From assembly GCA_947624375.1 (NCBI GenBank), contig CANQKD010000012.1:1-64000 (forward strand): a DNA stretch of 64,000 nucleotides, in the 5' to 3' direction. Source of the stretch: an uncultured Clostridia bacterium (GTDB lineage: Bacteria > Bacillota > Clostridia > Oscillospirales > Ruminococcaceae). The notes beneath the pieces are model-generated. The model was given only the letters and a program-made list of their open reading frames with translations, was not told the origin of the DNA and ran no database searches. A program made the translations under genes and the position numbers. How positions within the stretch are numbered: position 1 is the first letter of the stretch; each line of letters starts with the position of its first letter. Shown here piece by piece: positions 8,936 through 19,889 of the stretch.

Positions 8936-9622
8936 CTACAGCTCCATGCCCGTGTGCTCTCTGTGGCTGAGGGTAACAGTCAGGTTGCCGTTGCGGCAGC
9001 GTATCTCATCAATAAGCTTCTTTTCGTTTTTTGCGTCCTTTAGTATTATGTTATATGTAAGCTCAAACATACTTCCCATGTTGGTGGTCTTCACCTTTTC
9101 AAGCTCGGGCTGCTTTACATACTTTTCAAAAATATCGTCAAATATCTCGGTAAAGTCAAGATCTTCGGGAATTATTATCTTCAGCTGCCTTGCCCCCTTG
9201 TCGTCCTCGCCGAAGCGTATAAACCCAAGTATCAGCAAAACTATGCTTATAACAGCCGTGGCAGCGACCGCAATGCCTATGTAACCCGTGCCCGTCGCCA
9301 GACCTATTGCCATCGCGCTGAAGATAGAAACTATCTCTTTTCCGTTGCCCGGCACCGAGCGAAAACGCACCAGGCTGAACGCACCCATTACCGATACTCC
9401 CACGCCTAAGTTGCCGTTTACCATCATTATAATAAGCTGCACAATAACGGGTATCAGTATAAGAGTTGTAAGTATGCTTTTAGATGAGTGCCCGTTCGTC
9501 ACTTTTGTCACCACCGCTATAACAACGCCCAGCAGCAGCGATACAGCCGTGCATATAAGCATCTGCTTGTCTGATATTGATGTCAGCACCGCCGTTGAAT
9601 TGTTAAAGATACTCTGAAACAT
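8936..9622 (-). CDS. DUF4956 family membrane protein
   Basis: Integral membrane protein of 228 residues. Hydrophobic segments lie at about residues 22-40, 50-68 and 102-138, with the conserved block GVSVMGAFSLVRFRSVPGNGKEI typical of DUF4956. A soluble C-terminal domain of about 90 residues follows (LKIIIPEDLDFTEIFDDIF...). ATG 9622 follows GGGGG by 7 bases. Its position between a VTC-domain gene and a carbohydrate-binding lipoprotein is a recurring arrangement in Ruminococcus and relatives. The biochemical function of the family is unknown to me; a part in making or exporting a surface polymer is only a guess from the neighbours. Confidence 0.88.
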   Translation of the reverse strand: MFQSIFNNSTAVLTSISDKQMLICTAVSLLLGVVIAVVTKVTNGHSSKSILTTLILIPVIVQLIIMMVNGNLGVGVSVMGAFSLVRFRSVPGNGKEIVSIFSAMAIGLATGTGYIGIAVAATAVISIVLLILGFIRFGEDDKGARQLKIIIPEDLDFTEIFDDIFEKYVKQPELEKVKTTNMGSMFELTYNIILKDAKNEKKLIDEIRCRNGNLTVTLSHREHTGMEL

Positions 9623-9640
9623 ACTTTTGCCCCCTATGGT

Positions 9641-10354
9641 TTACTTTATGTCAGCGGTCTGTTTCGCCGCTTGCATTTTATAAAAAGTTCCGTACTTTGA
9701 AAAAGATGTCGGGTATATGCCGTTTTCACTCAGAAGATCGCACAGCCACACAGGCATTGCGGTAATGGTCTTTACCTCCATTATGGCGTTTCCCTGCGGT
9801 ATTATGCATATGCCGTCATCGCCGTCCTGAAGTGTGAGCCGATCGCCGCGGCAGCGAACGTTAAGGTCAAACGTCACACGGAATTCGCCGTCTTCAATGC
9901 CGTAATATGCCAGCCTGTCGTAGCACACCAGCGCCGCAGGCACGGGCTTGTAAAAGCTCACGAACCACTTTATCTCCTCGCCTATCTGGCTGTCAGAGGG
10001 CAGCTCACCGCCGCACAATAAATATTCCCTCGCCTGAGAGTACGTCACTGCCACCCTGCGCTTGTATACCACTCCATCATACTTTCTTTTAAGCTCTATA
10101 AAAACGTTGTCGCTATCTGTAACGCTTTTGCCGTAGCACCTCAGCCGCAGTTTTTCTTTGAATACCGGCTTGTCTACCGAGCGCCGCACCAGGTCGTTGT
10201 TTTCTGTATCGAAGTATATGCTGCATATCGTGCTCAGTCCGTAGCTGTCCAGAAGCATATGACCCTCCAGAGCTTTCTGTACCATGTCAAACTGCTCTTT
10301 AGTAAGCATATATTTCTTTTCATAGCGCTTGAAAACGCCAAGCGGCTTTGCCAT
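9641..10354 (-). CDS. VTC-domain (polyphosphate polymerase-like) protein
   Basis: Soluble protein of 237 residues carrying a VTC domain, the catalytic fold of yeast polyphosphate polymerase. Visible motifs: FKRYEKKYML at the start, ICSIYFDTENNDLVRRS, KLRLRCYGK and FIELKRKYDGVVYKRR, which supply the charged residues of the tunnel in this family, plus YDRLAYY and FRVTFDLNVRCR. ATG 10354 follows AGAGGTGG. It is the first gene of a three-gene operon and is divergent from tatD. Whether it makes polyphosphate or acts on another nucleotide-linked substrate cannot be told from the sequence. Confidence 0.88.
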   Translation of the reverse strand: MAKPLGVFKRYEKKYMLTKEQFDMVQKALEGHMLLDSYGLSTICSIYFDTENNDLVRRSVDKPVFKEKLRLRCYGKSVTDSDNVFIELKRKYDGVVYKRRVAVTYSQAREYLLCGGELPSDSQIGEEIKWFVSFYKPVPAALVCYDRLAYYGIEDGEFRVTFDLNVRCRGDRLTLQDGDDGICIIPQGNAIMEVKTITAMPVWLCDLLSENGIYPTSFSKYGTFYKMQAAKQTADIK

Positions 10355-12061: not shown

Positions 12062-14431
12062 CTATACCCTCTTCATCTGCTGCAATAATAGCGTTACCGC
12101 CAGCCATATCAGGTTGTATACCAGCACAACAGTTGCCGAAAGCTGTCCCAGCGAACCTATTATCACCATAATAAGCGATATCAGCGCACCCAGCGCCGAG
12201 GCTGTCAGCTGAAGCATCATGCCCATTACCGCCATCGACTGTATGTTCTTCACACCGCATATCAGCATGGCTATCGAATGGAAGTGACCGCTGCATATAA
12301 GCGGAGAAGATATCCTCGGCACGTATGCCGTCTCTTTCGCGTATTCGCTGTGGAAACGGAACGGCACAAGCTTTAGTTTGGCAGTGTCAACATCAAACAG
12401 CTCCGACAAAAACTTTGTAGATATAAACGAATCTACCGTCCTTATAACCACCGTAACATTCTTGTCTGTAAGCTCTTGCAGCCACTTGCTCACCGTAAGG
12501 TTGGGGCTTACGCGAATAAAGAATATCGCCGCTACCACACCCGATATCGAAAGATATATCGGTATGTTGCCCTTTGAGTATTCTGACTCCTTCGCAAGCG
12601 TAGGCAGACCCTCTATCGAGTGGTTCTGCATAAGCTCCCTGTTGCCGAAAAGTATCCTCTTGTGCTCTATCCAGCCCGAGAGCCCCAGACCGTCTTCATA
12701 GATGTAGCTTTCTACAGGGTACAGCATCTCCGTCTTTCCGCGAAGCATTTTGTAGAATGTCGGCTTCATAATGCCTCCTGCCTGGCAGGAAAGGCTCGCA
12801 GCGTATAGTATGCAGTCTTCTATAAGAGTTGAAGACATAGCTTTCAGGTTTACCAGATCTACCATGCCGTCCGGGAACAGCTGCTCTGCATCTATAAGCA
12901 CCGAGTTGGTGTCGGAATATTCCTCAACACCCGAATAACCCAGCAGCACCGCGGAAGATTGCAAATACTTCTTTGAAGCCCTTGCAAGCGGCAGATTTAC
13001 AATAAGCATCAGCGCAAACGATGAACAAAGCGTTACAAGTCCGCACATCGCGCTCAGCGCCGTAACTATCTTTTCCGCTATGCCGGCATCGGAGCGATTG
13101 AGCAGCAGGCTTATCAGCGCCGCCGCAACACCTGCAATAGCCATTATCGGGGCTGCCTTTCTGCTGTACTCATCGGAAATATCCGAAGAATACGAATTTC
13201 TCAGAAAATCATCAACAAACTCCGTCTCACGCGTGGTAACAAGCTCCGCAAAGTCATCGAGCGTTCCCTTGGTGAATTTGTACGCAACATCGTCGTCTTC
13301 CACCTTTGCGAAAGCGTGCTTTTCAAACTCCCCTGCCGCAAAACGCAGATTCCTGTCCGCGCGGTTCACCATTGAAAGCTTGCCCAGCGTGTTGAACAGC
13401 ATGCCCAGAATAGCAGCCGCCGTGTATATGTGGTAGTTTCCCGTCTGTATAGATTCGGGCGCAAACAGATTTACAATGCCCGTAATTATCGTTACCACTA
13501 AGCCTATGGCTGCAATACTGTCGCAGTCGGCTTTGAAAGAGAACAGCTTTTTCAGTCCGCTGAATATCACCGTGTATGATACGAACGCCGAAATTATGCC
13601 CAGTATCGTCAGCGTGAACACAAAAGCCTCGGGGCTGTAGTTGCGGCTGAACATAGAAACTATCGGCAGCCCTAAGTCGTTCGCCACCGTCAGATATACA
13701 GAGAAAAGCGATGTGAACACCAGCACGCACAGTCTTACCACAATGTTGCTCTTCAGCTGCATTATGTCCGCCAGCACGTCCTGCGACTGCTCAAACGATG
13801 TAAATTCATCTATAGGCAATGCCTCTTTTGCCTCATTCGCCGCCGCACGGGTCTTCTGCTCCTCGTCGTTGCGGTCGTTGTCAAGCACAAAATTCTGTAC
13901 CTTTTCTTCGCGGCGCTTTTCAAGTATCTCCATTTTCTGCTCGTCGGTAAGGTCTTCACCCATTTCGATCTGCTCTGTTTTGGGTATTATCTTCCCCTCC
14001 AGATCCATATCGATATCCTTGACGCTTGCCCTGTTTACAGGCGGTATAGCGCCTGTAGGGGTGTAGCCTTCACCGCTCTTTTTCTCCATCACCATTCTCT
14101 CAATGACCGATGTGTTTATGCGGTTCTTTTTCTTGTCGGTGTTCTTCTTCGAATTATCAAACTTTACATCGTCAAGGCTCATTTCAACGGTCTCTTCTTC
14201 AGCGCCTTCATCGGCAGTCTCCATAGCAGCCTCAACAACGCTCTTTGGCGTGATCACCGCCGAGACCGCCTGTGCAGAATTGTCAGCCTCTGCCTCTGCC
14301 TTTTCAGCCTTTGCGCCGCTCAGTATGCTTTCAAGCTCAGCCTCGCTGCTTTCGGTATTCTTAGCAGCGCCGTTTGCCTTTTTCGCAGAATATTCCTGAA
14401 GAATATCATCAAGCGAAAATTTATCTGACAT
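12062..14431 (-). CDS. Degenerate P1B-type ATPase-like membrane protein
   Basis: 789-residue protein. Residues 1-225 are a charged, low-complexity cytoplasmic region; membrane segments follow at about 230-255, 270-292, 305-325, 335-350, 428-445 and 460-482, then a cytoplasmic domain (about 485-710) and terminal membrane segments to 780. The second half resembles heavy-metal P-type ATPases: NLPLARASKK (479-488) sits where CPC-ALGLATP normally lies; VLIDAEQLF (511-519) replaces the phosphorylation motif DKTGT; ILFGNRELMQNHSI (593-606) matches the nucleotide-binding-domain signature; YLSISGVVAAIFFI follows as in the family. The TGE and TGDN motifs are not seen. Pumping by the usual mechanism is therefore unlikely. 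ATG 14431 follows GGAAGGA; rlmB lies 26 bases upstream. The pseudoenzyme reading is inferred from motif alignment by eye. Confidence 0.7.
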   Translation of the reverse strand: MSDKFSLDDILQEYSAKKANGAAKNTESSEAELESILSGAKAEKAEAEADNSAQAVSAVITPKSVVEAAMETADEGAEEETVEMSLDDVKFDNSKKNTDKKKNRINTSVIERMVMEKKSGEGYTPTGAIPPVNRASVKDIDMDLEGKIIPKTEQIEMGEDLTDEQKMEILEKRREEKVQNFVLDNDRNDEEQKTRAAANEAKEALPIDEFTSFEQSQDVLADIMQLKSNIVVRLCVLVFTSLFSVYLTVANDLGLPIVSMFSRNYSPEAFVFTLTILGIISAFVSYTVIFSGLKKLFSFKADCDSIAAIGLVVTIITGIVNLFAPESIQTGNYHIYTAAAILGMLFNTLGKLSMVNRADRNLRFAAGEFEKHAFAKVEDDDVAYKFTKGTLDDFAELVTTRETEFVDDFLRNSYSSDISDEYSRKAAPIMAIAGVAAALISLLLNRSDAGIAEKIVTALSAMCGLVTLCSSFALMLIVNLPLARASKKYLQSSAVLLGYSGVEEYSDTNSVLIDAEQLFPDGMVDLVNLKAMSSTLIEDCILYAASLSCQAGGIMKPTFYKMLRGKTEMLYPVESYIYEDGLGLSGWIEHKRILFGNRELMQNHSIEGLPTLAKESEYSKGNIPIYLSISGVVAAIFFIRVSPNLTVSKWLQELTDKNVTVVIRTVDSFISTKFLSELFDVDTAKLKLVPFRFHSEYAKETAYVPRISSPLICSGHFHSIAMLICGVKNIQSMAVMGMMLQLTASALGALISLIMVIIGSLGQLSATVVLVYNLIWLAVTLLLQQMKRV

Positions 14432-14457: not shown

Positions 14458-15225
14458 TTACTGTTTCATCGTCCTCTGACGCGCTATCTCGTACATAAAT
14501 ATACCTGCCGCCACAGATGCGTTGAGCGAATTTATCTTTCCTTTCATCGGCAGACTTACAATGCAGTCGCACTTTTCTTTCACAAGTCTGCCCATTCCAA
14601 ACCCTTCAGAGCCTATTACCAAGCCTATCGCGCCTTTAAGGTCTGCTTTTGTGTAGTCCTCGCCGCCGCCGTCAGTGCCGTATATCCACACGCCGCACTG
14701 TTTCAGTTTGTCAATAGCCGAGGGCAGATTTGCCACCCTTGCTACTGGCAGCCAGCTTGCCGCCCCTGCCGACGTCTTGTAAACTGTGGTGTCCAGCGAT
14801 GCGCTCCGCCTTTTCGGTATTATAACACCGTGTGCGCCTGCCGCCTCAGCCGTGCGTATTATAGCGCCCAGGTTGTGCGGGTCTTCTATCTCGTCGCATA
14901 TAATTATGAATGGGTCTTCTCCCTTTTGCTTTGCCTTTTCCAGTATGTCCTCAACCGTAACATACTCTGCACACGCCGCCGAGGCTATCACACCCTGATG
15001 CGCCGCGCCGCCGCACATAAACGAAAGCTTGTTTTCCTGCGTGTCCTTTACCGGTATGCCGCGTTCTTTTGCAAGCCTTATTATGTTCTTCACCGAGCCG
15101 CCGCAGGCAGGGTTCACATACAGCTTGTCTATCGCCATACCCGACTTTAGTGCCTCGGTAACGGCGTTTCTGCCTACGATAAGCTGCCTGTCATCGTGCG
15201 TGTTTTTAATGTTATCATTTGCCAT
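14458..15225 (-). CDS. rlmB: 23S rRNA 2'-O-ribose methyltransferase RlmB
   Basis: SpoU/TrmH-family SPOUT enzyme of 255 residues, expected to methylate the guanosine-2251 ribose of 23S rRNA. An N-terminal substrate-binding domain starts IVGRNAVTEALKSG. The catalytic knot motifs are DPHNLGAIIRTAEAAGAHGV, GLVIGSEGFGMGRLV and SLPMKGKINSLNASVAAGI. The ATG at 15225 has GGAG rather far upstream (14 bases). It is the first gene of a two-gene operon with the P-type ATPase-like gene and has its own promoter. Another SpoU target cannot be excluded. Confidence 0.92.
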   Translation of the reverse strand: MANDNIKNTHDDRQLIVGRNAVTEALKSGMAIDKLYVNPACGGSVKNIIRLAKERGIPVKDTQENKLSFMCGGAAHQGVIASAACAEYVTVEDILEKAKQKGEDPFIIICDEIEDPHNLGAIIRTAEAAGAHGVIIPKRRSASLDTTVYKTSAGAASWLPVARVANLPSAIDKLKQCGVWIYGTDGGGEDYTKADLKGAIGLVIGSEGFGMGRLVKEKCDCIVSLPMKGKINSLNASVAAGIFMYEIARQRTMKQ

Positions 15226-15313: not shown

Positions 15314-16120
15314 CTATTTTCCCGTGCGTATGTAGTGAAACAGATACTGCTGCGCTATGCCCTCTATACCCTCGCAGCACTCCGGCAGCCCCAGCGGATA
15401 CCACATCTCAAGCACCCTCTTTATCCACACATCAACGGGAAAAGCCTCCGTCCTGTGCACACCGTAAAGCAGCGCGCACTGCGCAACCTTGGGCCCCACA
15501 CCGCAAATTTTCATAAGATCTTTCTGCGCACACTCTATCGGCTCTCTCTTTATTTTTTCAAGATCCACCTCACCGCTGCGCAGCTTCTTCGCCGCATCTA
15601 TTATGTACTTTGCGCGAAAGCCTGCCCTTAAAAACGCAAGGTCTTCGGGGCTGAGGTCTGCAAGCCTTTCATACGGCGGAAATCCCCCGAAATGCTCACA
15701 CAGCCTGCCTATTATGCCCTTTATCCGCGGTATGTTGTTGTTCTGCGATATTATAAAAGAGCACAGCGCCTCCCAGCTGTCCTGCCTTAGAAGCCTTATG
15801 CCGCCTGCGTATCCACACGCCTTTGCCATAGTGCAGTCTTCTGAGAGCTGTCTTTTTATCTCTCCGTAGTCTGTAGCCAGATCAAAATATTCATACCAAA
15901 CGCTCCTGAATGTCTCCTCATCGGTATCTTTCAGACGAAAAACACCCTCGCCCTCCTGCGATATGGTAAGCGGCACGTTAAGGTATGCCCCCACGTATGT
16001 CACATTCTTTTGTGTATTATCCCTCTGCCAGCGAAAAGCCTGTCCGCAGTCAAGCGTTTCGTCTAAATCAAAGTCCTGCTGATAAAGCAGTATGTCACGT
16101 CCGTCTTTTTTGTATTCCAA
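15314..16120 (-). CDS. ogg: 8-oxoguanine DNA glycosylase (OGG1-type)
   Basis: Base-excision repair enzyme of 268 residues that removes 8-oxoguanine. The N-terminal OGG domain has DETLDCGQAFRW; the helix-hairpin-helix region reads LMKICGVGPKVAQCALLYG with the catalytic lysine, followed by AFPVDVWIKR with the catalytic aspartate; FIISQNNNIPRIKGII is also typical. I place the start at TTG 16120 because AAGGAGG lies 8 bases upstream. The in-frame ATG at 16150 falls almost on the predicted transcription start and so cannot have a ribosome site. Single gene with a divergent promoter shared with the DUF6062 gene. Confidence 0.92.
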   Translation of the reverse strand: MEYKKDGRDILLYQQDFDLDETLDCGQAFRWQRDNTQKNVTYVGAYLNVPLTISQEGEGVFRLKDTDEETFRSVWYEYFDLATDYGEIKRQLSEDCTMAKACGYAGGIRLLRQDSWEALCSFIISQNNNIPRIKGIIGRLCEHFGGFPPYERLADLSPEDLAFLRAGFRAKYIIDAAKKLRSGEVDLEKIKREPIECAQKDLMKICGVGPKVAQCALLYGVHRTEAFPVDVWIKRVLEMWYPLGLPECCEGIEGIAQQYLFHYIRTGK

Positions 16121-16134
16121 AATGCGTGCCCTCC

Positions 16135-16163
16135 TTGACTTTTTTGTCATATTACATTATACT
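16135..16163 (+). promoter_or_regulatory. Sigma-A promoter of the DUF6062 gene
   Basis: TTGACT (16135-16140), 17-base spacer, TATACT (16158-16163). The -10 box overlaps the -10 box of the opposite-strand glycosylase promoter by four bases, so the two cannot be opened by two polymerases at once. Confidence 0.75.
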
Positions 16164-16184: not shown

Positions 16185-16212
16185 CATAAAATATTCTGAA
16201 AGGAAGATAACT

Positions 16213-16896
16213 ATGCGAGAGAGCATTCTTACAATACCTATAAACGAGGTCTTCGAGCCCAAATGCGGCTGCCCCATCTGCTCCATGCGCGATACTTTAG
16301 AGCAGCGCTGCGTTGAGTACATAATGGGCGCGGCTATGATGGAGCCCGATGTGCGCATCGAGACCAACGCGCAGGGCTTTTGCCATACCCATTTTGAGCA
16401 GATGAAAAAGTGCAAGAACCGCCTGTCTTTAGCGCTTATGCTGTCAACGCACCTGAAAAAGCTGGAGTTTGACACCTTTGAGCACAAGCCGCTTTTCGCA
16501 GGCAAAAACGCCAAGCAGCGCAAAATATCGCAGATAAACGAGTCTTGCTTCGTTTGCTCCAAGATAGACTGGGGCATGGAGCGTTTTATGGTAACGCTTT
16601 TTGAGATGTATTCAAAAGACTCATCTTTCCGCACGCTGTTTTCTCAGCAGGAGTATATCTGCCTGCCCCACTTTCAGCTGCTTTGCTCTCTCAGCGCCGA
16701 AAAGCTGGATAGACCCACCGCCAAGCAGTTTGAAAAGGAGTGCGAAACGCTTGTGCGAAACTACCTGCACACCCTGTGCGAGGACGTTGCTCACTACTGC
16801 GATATGTACGACTACCGCAACACCGGCAAAGATGCCGACTGGGGCAATTCCAAAGACAGCATAGAGCGTGCTATCAAGTTTCTCACCACAAGATAA
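16213..16896 (+). CDS. DUF6062 family cysteine-rich protein
   Basis: Soluble protein of 227 residues with two paired-cysteine sites. CGCPICSM sits near residue 18, followed by the conserved E..CVEY.MG..MMEPDVRIETN..GFCHTHF block, and CFVCSKI lies near residue 116; GFCHTH and CLPHF may add His/Cys ligands. This pattern fits DUF6062, a Firmicutes family of unknown function, and suggests metal binding. ATG 16213 follows AAAGGAAG. It is monocistronic, divergent from ogg with overlapping promoters. No function is claimed. Confidence 0.8.
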   Translation: MRESILTIPINEVFEPKCGCPICSMRDTLEQRCVEYIMGAAMMEPDVRIETNAQGFCHTHFEQMKKCKNRLSLALMLSTHLKKLEFDTFEHKPLFAGKNAKQRKISQINESCFVCSKIDWGMERFMVTLFEMYSKDSSFRTLFSQQEYICLPHFQLLCSLSAEKLDRPTAKQFEKECETLVRNYLHTLCEDVAHYCDMYDYRNTGKDADWGNSKDSIERAIKFLTTR

Positions 16897-17555: not shown

Positions 17556-19889
17556 TTATTTTGTCGGCGTGTCGTAAAGCGTCAGCGAAATATTCTCACT
17601 GTCGTAAAGCGCTATGTAAGAATATGTTATACCCGTACTGCTGCCGCTCTGGTCAAACGTGCCCGTCACTATCTTTTCAACAATTATCTCGCGTATCTCA
17701 CCGGGGTAGTTGTTGTCGTATATCTGCAATATGAACCTCCTCGGGCAGTCCGCGTCCTGTATCATGGCAATAGCGTTCACCGCGTGCCTGTTGTTTAGCA
17801 TTATAACCGAAGGTCTGCCGTCCAGCAGGTCTGCCTCTATCCTGTCAAAGCACTCCCTGCCGTCCGAGAGCTTGTATGTACAGTTCTCAATGTTGTCCCA
17901 CCGCAGAATGTGGTATCTCAGCAGCGCCTTGTAAAGCTCCGCCTCGTCCTTGCCGTAGTTTGCCTCTATCGCAGCCGAGTTTCCTATAACGTCCAGTGCC
18001 AGCAGCTGCGCGTACTTCCATTGCAGCCCCAGATCTTCAATATCATAGTCGGTAGTGCCAAAGCCCATTTCCTGAGCCTTTTTCATAATATCGCTCTTTA
18101 CCTGCAACGTCATAGTGCCGCCGCTGTTGTAGTCAAGGTATTCCGAAGGCTTGCTGAACTCATTGTTGTTTACAGCTGTAATGCTAAGATCATGCAGGTT
18201 TCCGCTCTTTGAGTATGTATCGCCTGCCTTGGTGCCCGTAAGGTCGTATTTCGGTCCCGTATATACCAGCATACTCGAATAATCGGGTTTGTATTCTTCC
18301 TGCGATATCGCCAGCTCACCGGTATACCAGTCTCTTGCAAACATTGCCATGCCAAAGCAGGTGCCGTTTGAAGAAGTCGTTCTGAAGTTTGAAAAGCTGA
18401 AGCCGTTGTTTGCAGGCACAAAGCCCGTGTTCGCTATCGAGTAGCCTGCCTTGCCCTCTTCGCCGTAGCTGGTTATATCATAGTTGAATGTAGTTTCTAT
18501 CTCTTTGAATACCTCGTCAAGGGCATCGGCATTGGCTGCGGTGTAGTATCTTCCGCCCGTGCCTTCTGCAATTTCCTGCATTCTCTTTGCGTTTACTTCC
18601 TGACCCAGACCTATCATAAGCACAATAATGTCGTTGTCGTTCGCAGCCTTTATTATCTCGTCCTGGTTTACCTCCAGCGTTTTTGTAGAGTAGCCGTCGC
18701 ACAGCATTATTATCATGTTGCTGTAATTTCCGTCAGACTCCTTGAACTCCCCTATCGCGCCCATTATCGCTTTCTGAAAGTCCGTTCCGTTGAAAACTTC
18801 GGGGTCGGTCTTTATCTTTCCTATAACGCTTTTCAGCTTGCTTTTGTCGGTAGTAAAATCCGCAAGCTCGGTGTATGTAGCGGTAAATTTGCTTACTCCC
18901 ACTAAACTTCCGTCAGATACCATATCTACAATATTATTTGAAAGATCAAGCCTTTTGAAGTTTACATCGTTCTCTTCCGAGCCTGCGCACATTTCCTCGG
19001 GGTACATCGAACCCGAGTTATCTATCAGCAGCTGCACCCTCATCGTGGGCGGCTCGCTTATTATCTTCGTGTTGCCCACCATGTATGTAGCGCACTCTGT
19101 TATCTTTGCAGATACCGTCAGCGTGCTCTCATCGGTCTGCGAATCTATCTTTTCAAATTCCTGCGTGTCGGCGTTGAACTTGTATATAGAAAGATCCTGT
19201 GCCTTTACTTTCCTCTCTTTCAGGTCGTCCTTGTCCATAGTGAACGATATCTGCGCATCTGCAAAAGTGTAATCGGTGTAAAAGCTCATCGCATCGGTAA
19301 GTATGCCCATGTTGTTTTTAAATCCCACCAGATCGAGATTATCAAAAACCGTGTCGCTCAGATTAGCAGAGCCGCTCACCAGAAGATGCGCATTGTTATA
19401 TTCTCTCTCAACGTCAAATATCCTCTGACTGTCCTCCTGCGAATCATCGCTCTTTGTCTTTTTCGGGTCAAGACCCATAATAAGCTCATATCCGTCCAGT
19501 ATGCCGTCGCCGTCGGTGTCGTTCTTTGTCGGGTCAGTGCCTGCCGTCACCTCGTCACCGTCGCAAATGCCGTCCCTGTCGGTGTCGCGCTCCTGATAGT
19601 CTGTAAGCATCTCTTCTTCCGTGCCGTTGGTCACACCGTCGTTGTCGTCGTCATCGGAAATGTGAAAGTCCTCCTCCAGCTCCAAAGAATCGTTCTTTAT
19701 GCTGTCCAGAAGATTTTTCATCTTGTCGCTCTGCTGCTTCTTGCTGAGATTGCCCACAAGCGTCATTATACCGTATATCACAGCGATTATTATCGCCACA
19801 ATAATAAGTATCTTCAGGCGCTTTTTGTAAACGCCTTTCATATACGCCTTGTATTCGTCCTTTGACATAAGATCCTTGTCTACTGCCAT
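17556..19889 (-). CDS. Membrane-anchored vWA protein with possible cysteine-peptidase domain
   Basis: 777-residue protein. A single N-terminal membrane anchor (about 25-45) follows a short cytoplasmic end. Residues 78-135 hold three acidic calcium-loop repeats of thrombospondin-3 type (DTDRDGICDGDE, DTDGDGILDGYE). A beta-rich region follows, then a vWA domain with an intact metal site: DNSGS (290-294), T369, and D398 in CDGYS. Residues about 480-777 form a further domain with NGTCFGMA (Cys511), NRHAVNAIA (His702) and YDNNYPG (Asp725/Asn726), an order resembling papain-like peptidases. The peptidase reading is my inference. The ribosome site is weak; a promoter lies at 19961-19934. Single gene, cell-surface adhesion or processing role likely. 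Confidence 0.8.
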   Translation of the reverse strand: MAVDKDLMSKDEYKAYMKGVYKKRLKILIIVAIIIAVIYGIMTLVGNLSKKQQSDKMKNLLDSIKNDSLELEEDFHISDDDDNDGVTNGTEEEMLTDYQERDTDRDGICDGDEVTAGTDPTKNDTDGDGILDGYELIMGLDPKKTKSDDSQEDSQRIFDVEREYNNAHLLVSGSANLSDTVFDNLDLVGFKNNMGILTDAMSFYTDYTFADAQISFTMDKDDLKERKVKAQDLSIYKFNADTQEFEKIDSQTDESTLTVSAKITECATYMVGNTKIISEPPTMRVQLLIDNSGSMYPEEMCAGSEENDVNFKRLDLSNNIVDMVSDGSLVGVSKFTATYTELADFTTDKSKLKSVIGKIKTDPEVFNGTDFQKAIMGAIGEFKESDGNYSNMIIMLCDGYSTKTLEVNQDEIIKAANDNDIIVLMIGLGQEVNAKRMQEIAEGTGGRYYTAANADALDEVFKEIETTFNYDITSYGEEGKAGYSIANTGFVPANNGFSFSNFRTTSSNGTCFGMAMFARDWYTGELAISQEEYKPDYSSMLVYTGPKYDLTGTKAGDTYSKSGNLHDLSITAVNNNEFSKPSEYLDYNSGGTMTLQVKSDIMKKAQEMGFGTTDYDIEDLGLQWKYAQLLALDVIGNSAAIEANYGKDEAELYKALLRYHILRWDNIENCTYKLSDGRECFDRIEADLLDGRPSVIMLNNRHAVNAIAMIQDADCPRRFILQIYDNNYPGEIREIIVEKIVTGTFDQSGSSTGITYSYIALYDSENISLTLYDTPTK

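Follow-up and report, generated by a model that had tools for sequence, protein, structure and literature searches.

An order-wide pseudo-P-type ATPase of copper-pump descent encoded next to rlmB

The locus and its neighbours

The window, meaning the whole stretch of 64,000 nucleotides that was analysed, carries on its minus strand a coding sequence at 12062..14431 for a protein of 789 amino acids. Its start, MSDKFS, is kept in close orthologues. All parts of this protein described below are encoded on the minus strand. The gene located 26 nt upstream on the same strand (14458..15225) encodes an rlmB-type SpoU rRNA 2'-O-methyltransferase (Pfam SpoU_methylase, 9.4e-44). The initial annotation had placed the two genes in one operon, and their association is both real and conserved: rlmB precedes the gene on the same strand in 117 members of a set of 120 loci, which counts some genomes twice. 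The gap between the two genes has a median of 24 nt and does not exceed 100 nt in 104 of these 117 loci. Such pairing can reflect shared regulation rather than shared function. Downstream, the next gene within 350 nt is EF-G-like in 9 of 39 diverse loci, representing 6 families (for example L047:9999-12083); in the window's genome, the nearest relative of this EF-G-like gene is found on another contig.

Several other neighbours recur. An OGG-type DNA glycosylase (15314-16150, minus strand) and a DUF6062 protein (16198-16896, plus strand) occur near the pair in 57 and 47 of the 120 loci, respectively, both in varying orientation. A VTC-domain protein (8936-10354, minus strand), adjoining a DUF4956 protein, is kept beside the locus in close relatives, and a protein of 777 amino acids that combines a von Willebrand A domain with a TSP3 repeat (17556-19889, minus strand) is kept near it within the genus.

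Homology to P1B ATPases and predicted structure

Pfam returns no match for the 789-residue protein even at an E-value of 10, and it holds no family for the other members tested. NCBIfam matches the family to pump models, although weakly: its CopA model aligns with residues 449-674 of the window's protein (E 1.6e-9) and is matched by 30 of 36 family members, with a best E-value of 2.9e-16. A sequence search of the PDB retrieves LpCopA (3rfu) over residues 400-674 with an E-value of 3.9e-8. The HMM-HMM comparison with P-type ATPases that the initial annotation had proposed was performed with hhalign, using profiles of 14 family members and 10 true P1B pumps, and gave a probability of 99.8 and an E-value of 2.9e-28 over 518 columns. 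The N-domain signature ILFGNRELMQNHSI and the P1B-like order of segments, both recognized initially from the sequence alone, are borne out by the NCBIfam CopA model, by LpCopA 3rfu, and by the hhalign comparison.

An AlphaFold2 model built from 50 sequences (the window's protein and its relatives) has a mean pLDDT of 77.6, with residues from about 210 onwards mostly at 80-95. Residues 485-710, in which a P- or N-domain fold had been expected, form ordered domains with pLDDT mostly at 80-93. The top PDB matches found by Foldseek are P1B pumps, copper pumps first (LpCopA 4bbj, E 1.2e-18), and the isolated CopA P and N domains 3a1d and 2b8e match with a probability of 1.00. Full-length superposition of the model on P1B pumps leaves a large rmsd of about 12 Angstrom, a value possible where domain orientations differ, so that the match supports the fold rather than a conformational state. 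Chance resemblance to P1B pumps is ruled out by the profile, profile-profile, and fold comparisons. The protein is a true homologue of CopA-type P1B ATPases, that is, a P-type ATPase by descent.

By alignment position, the predicted helices appear to follow the P1B order. The segment at residues 213-365 (13337..13795) would correspond to MA, MB, M1, and M2, and it includes the MB glycine Gly292, which is kept in 33 of 37 diverse members. Residues 418-493 (12953..13180) would represent M3 and M4, and residues 717-786 (12074..12283) M5 and M6. The P- and N-domain folds occupy residues 495-715 (12287..12949), as seen in the model and in the Foldseek matches. With P1B-1 CopA (LpCopA 3rfu/4bbj), the protein shares the domain order, the predicted MA and MB helices together with six core helices, the MB glycine, both cytosolic folds, and, in the N domain, the second glycine of GxG and the glycine of GN. 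In contrast to CopA, the family is devoid of DKTGT, CPC, TGE, HP, and GDGxND, its A domain is approximately halved, and it carries a long disordered N-terminal arm with an SVDDILxEY motif; the window's protein has no CxxC metal-binding domain. The zinc- and cadmium-transporting ATPases ZntA and CadA share the general P1B fold, but their profile matches are weaker than those of CopA, and in the tree the family branches with CopA rather than with them.

The N-terminal extension had been described as a charged stretch of 225 residues. Its charged character stands, while its span in this protein is residues 1-204 (13820..14431), about 205 residues, most of which are predicted to be disordered (pLDDT mostly below 60). 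Close to its start lies the short motif FSLDDILQEY (residues 5-14, 14390..14419), a predicted helix that the model places at residues 7-19 with low confidence. It represents a conserved acidic helix motif of the family, SVDDILxEY. The pattern V/L/I-D/E-D-I-L is present within the first 60 residues of 108 of 138 members, compared with 4.6 expected from shuffled sequences. The idea that the motif serves as a general docking tag is unsupported: when the window's own genome was searched with two degenerate DNA patterns, this gene was the only one in which it turned up near a protein N-terminus.

Loss of the catalytic motifs

Motifs were counted in an alignment of 140 family members and 25 true P1B pumps; the 140 members are weighted toward close relatives, and a subset of 37 diverse members gives the fairer picture. 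In P-type ATPases, DKTGT is required for phosphorylation. As the initial annotation had stated, this motif is replaced by DAEQLF, with its five positions aligned to D514-A-E-Q-L518 (12878..12892). The lysine is found in 0 of 140 members. The aspartate is present in 98 of 140 members overall and in only 9 of the 37 diverse ones, being retained near the window's genus and mostly lost across the order. Consequently, Asp514, which had been singled out as the surviving aspartate, is not the key survivor. The replaced site is followed by a new F519-P520-x-G sequence, and the resulting LFPxG pattern is well conserved (F519 in 131 and P520 in 133 of 140 members).

The metal-binding motif requires a correction. 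It was initially thought to be replaced by NLP, but CPC aligns with S470-S471-F472 (13016..13024) in M4, and NLP at 479-481 sits at the later conserved 'ATP' proline of P1B pumps. The first CPC cysteine survives in 4 of the 140 members, no cysteine is among the commonest residues listed for the second, and the proline is kept in 27 of the 37 diverse members.

TGE could not be found in the earlier inspection and is indeed gone, lost along with most of the A domain. The remnant comprises residues 366-417 (13181..13336), and E-D-D occupies the TGE position in the window's protein. Family members have an A domain with a median span of 55 aa, against 120 in true pumps, and their P-domain stretch before M5 is likewise shortened, to 49 from 81. 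TGDN had likewise been reported as missing; however, TGD persists in a degenerate form, T665-V666-D667 (12431..12439), in which the aspartate is kept in 138 of 140 members, position 665 is threonine or serine in most, and the glycine is lost. Overlooked at that stage was the deletion of the GDGxND loop in all 140 members, with an approximate junction at 12305..12328, placed by eye from the alignment. The lysine of HAD motif III is lost in most members. In the N domain, the HP motif is lost, histidine not appearing among the residues listed as most common at that position in the 140 members, and the glutamate and histidine are lost in nearly all. Two glycines of the EDGLG...FGN segment (residues 579-597, 12641..12697) are almost invariant, namely G583 (139 of 140) and G596 (37 of 37 diverse members). 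Since these glycines are kept, the N domain may still bind ATP. In summary, the P- and N-domain folds and the membrane bundle are kept, but the residues on which the phosphorylation cycle is known to depend are all missing.

Distribution, selection, and origin

Of 197 genomes from the order, 184 contain a match to the family; among the 155 good ones, the count is 150. This order, the one in which GTDB places Ruminococcus, is very probably Oscillospirales, since the relatives that bear names are Ruminococcus species, among them R. bicirculans and R. albus 8, and Oscillospiraceae MAGs. There is one copy per genome, with a single exception, a 75%-complete genome with a split gene or two matches. 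Five good genomes yield no match: four of them show no clear rlmB either, and in the remaining one the contig breaks off within the gene, which there directly follows rlmB. When 196 genomes of the class were sampled, full-length matches were confined to the 7 that belong to the order; in the others, the profile picks up segments of P-type pumps. The sequence diverges fast across the order, with identities of 17-25%.

Comparisons with close relatives give a dN/dS of 0.035-0.048 for the core (residues 205-789) and of about 0.1-0.14 for the N-terminal arm, one of the comparisons for the arm being saturated. Of the matches listed, all except one have an intact reading frame. Degenerate catalytic motifs would also be expected of a decaying relic, but a core dN/dS of about 0.04, the intact frames, and retention throughout the order leave that explanation virtually no probability; a decayed pseudogene is ruled out by the dN/dS values and the retention. 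Conservation, purifying selection, and the order-wide spread instead indicate a functional pseudoenzyme family, in which the catalytic residues are lost and the gene is kept by selection. The earlier description of the protein as a pseudo-ATPase is upheld by the same evidence, together with the loss of the motifs and the preserved P- and N-domain folds. Known pseudoenzymes, such as pseudokinases, show the same combination of a kept fold, lost catalytic residues, purifying selection, and new conserved surfaces; the difference is that here the fold is that of a P-type ATPase.

In the tree, the pseudo-ATPases form one side of a fully supported branch and join CopA, not the Zn-type pumps. In five genomes of another family of the class (f42, loci L280-L284), an intact CopA gene, whose product retains DKTGT, CPC, and GDG, begins within about 10 nt downstream of rlmB. 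This order of genes is a possible ancestral arrangement, and it suggests that the pseudo-pump may have evolved in situ, from an active pump gene already located beside rlmB. On the tree, a joint clade of the f42 CopA and the pseudo-ATPases is neither favoured nor ruled out (AU p 0.25, against 0.27 for an alternative grouping).

Functional interpretation

The initial annotation proposed a role as a sensor, scaffold, or regulator in the membrane. The loss of the catalytic motifs combined with strong selection suggests that the protein probably does not act as a pump and serves instead as a platform or sensor in the membrane. The interpretation preferred here, with somewhat better than even confidence, is that it is a pseudo-P-type ATPase of copper-type P1B descent reused as a non-catalytic membrane scaffold or receptor. 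Under this model, the eight-helix bundle would anchor the protein in the membrane, the P/N headpiece, with its new LFPxG and EDGxG surfaces, would bind a cytosolic partner or a small ligand, and the long flexible N-terminal arm would recruit a partner via the short acidic helix SVDDILxEY. Identities as low as those found across the order would sit awkwardly with a single fixed ligand site. The weakest step is a connection to ribosome maturation or translation at the membrane, which is suggested by the strict pairing with rlmB and by the EF-G-like gene downstream in some families; judged from gene neighbourhood alone, such a connection perhaps exists. The boldest version, in which the whole order turned a copper pump, in place beside rlmB, into a universal membrane component linking ribosome maturation or translation (RlmB, EF-G-like protein) to the membrane, is correspondingly speculative and rather unlikely.

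Other functions can be considered for a protein of this shape. By analogy with pseudokinases that modulate kinases, it could be a regulatory subunit of an active P-type ATPase, either a real CopA or another pump. The retained bundle and headpiece would suit such a role, and a true P1B pump is also detected in 192 of the 197 genomes of the order in a survey that scored part of the candidates per genome. However, two good genomes (G323 and G380) have the pseudo gene and, in the same survey, no P1B match at E<=1e-60, which makes a pump-subunit role less likely. Moreover, some other genomes have only weaker P1B matches, which are maybe not of the copper type, and the true pumps of the window's genome are encoded on contigs other than that of the pseudo gene. 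Overall, this alternative is unlikely. The protein could also be a transporter or channel, with a solute passing through its P1B-like bundle independently of phosphorylation. The eight helices predicted in P1B order and the proline kept at the CPC position in most diverse members would be consistent with this, but the cysteines that bind metal have disappeared and M4 shows no conserved polar motif in their place, leaving this alternative somewhat less probable still. Least plausible among these functional alternatives is a new enzyme that uses the HAD-like site of the P domain with other residues. The near-invariant D667 and the threonine or serine at 665 could point that way; against it, the DKTGT lysine, motif IV, and, in most members, the motif III lysine are gone, and D514 is not conserved in the order, so it is highly improbable. 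A non-catalytic scaffold or receptor remains the preferred interpretation.

Significance

Few ion pumps have been studied as thoroughly as the P-type ATPases. A literature search for pseudo P-type ATPases turned up neither an account of a family of this kind nor a paper combining 'P-type ATPase' with 'pseudoenzyme', and the sections consulted of a 2023 review devoted to unanswered questions about these ATPases mention no conserved pseudo-pump family (PMC10654040). The family described here is a real, order-wide pseudo-P-type ATPase: a near-universal, normally single-copy gene of a major order of gut bacteria encodes a pump-like protein that has lost the catalytic motifs. If its retention is a fair guide to its importance, the gene would belong to the core set of these bacteria, and the new surfaces conserved in its product would offer direct targets for experiment.
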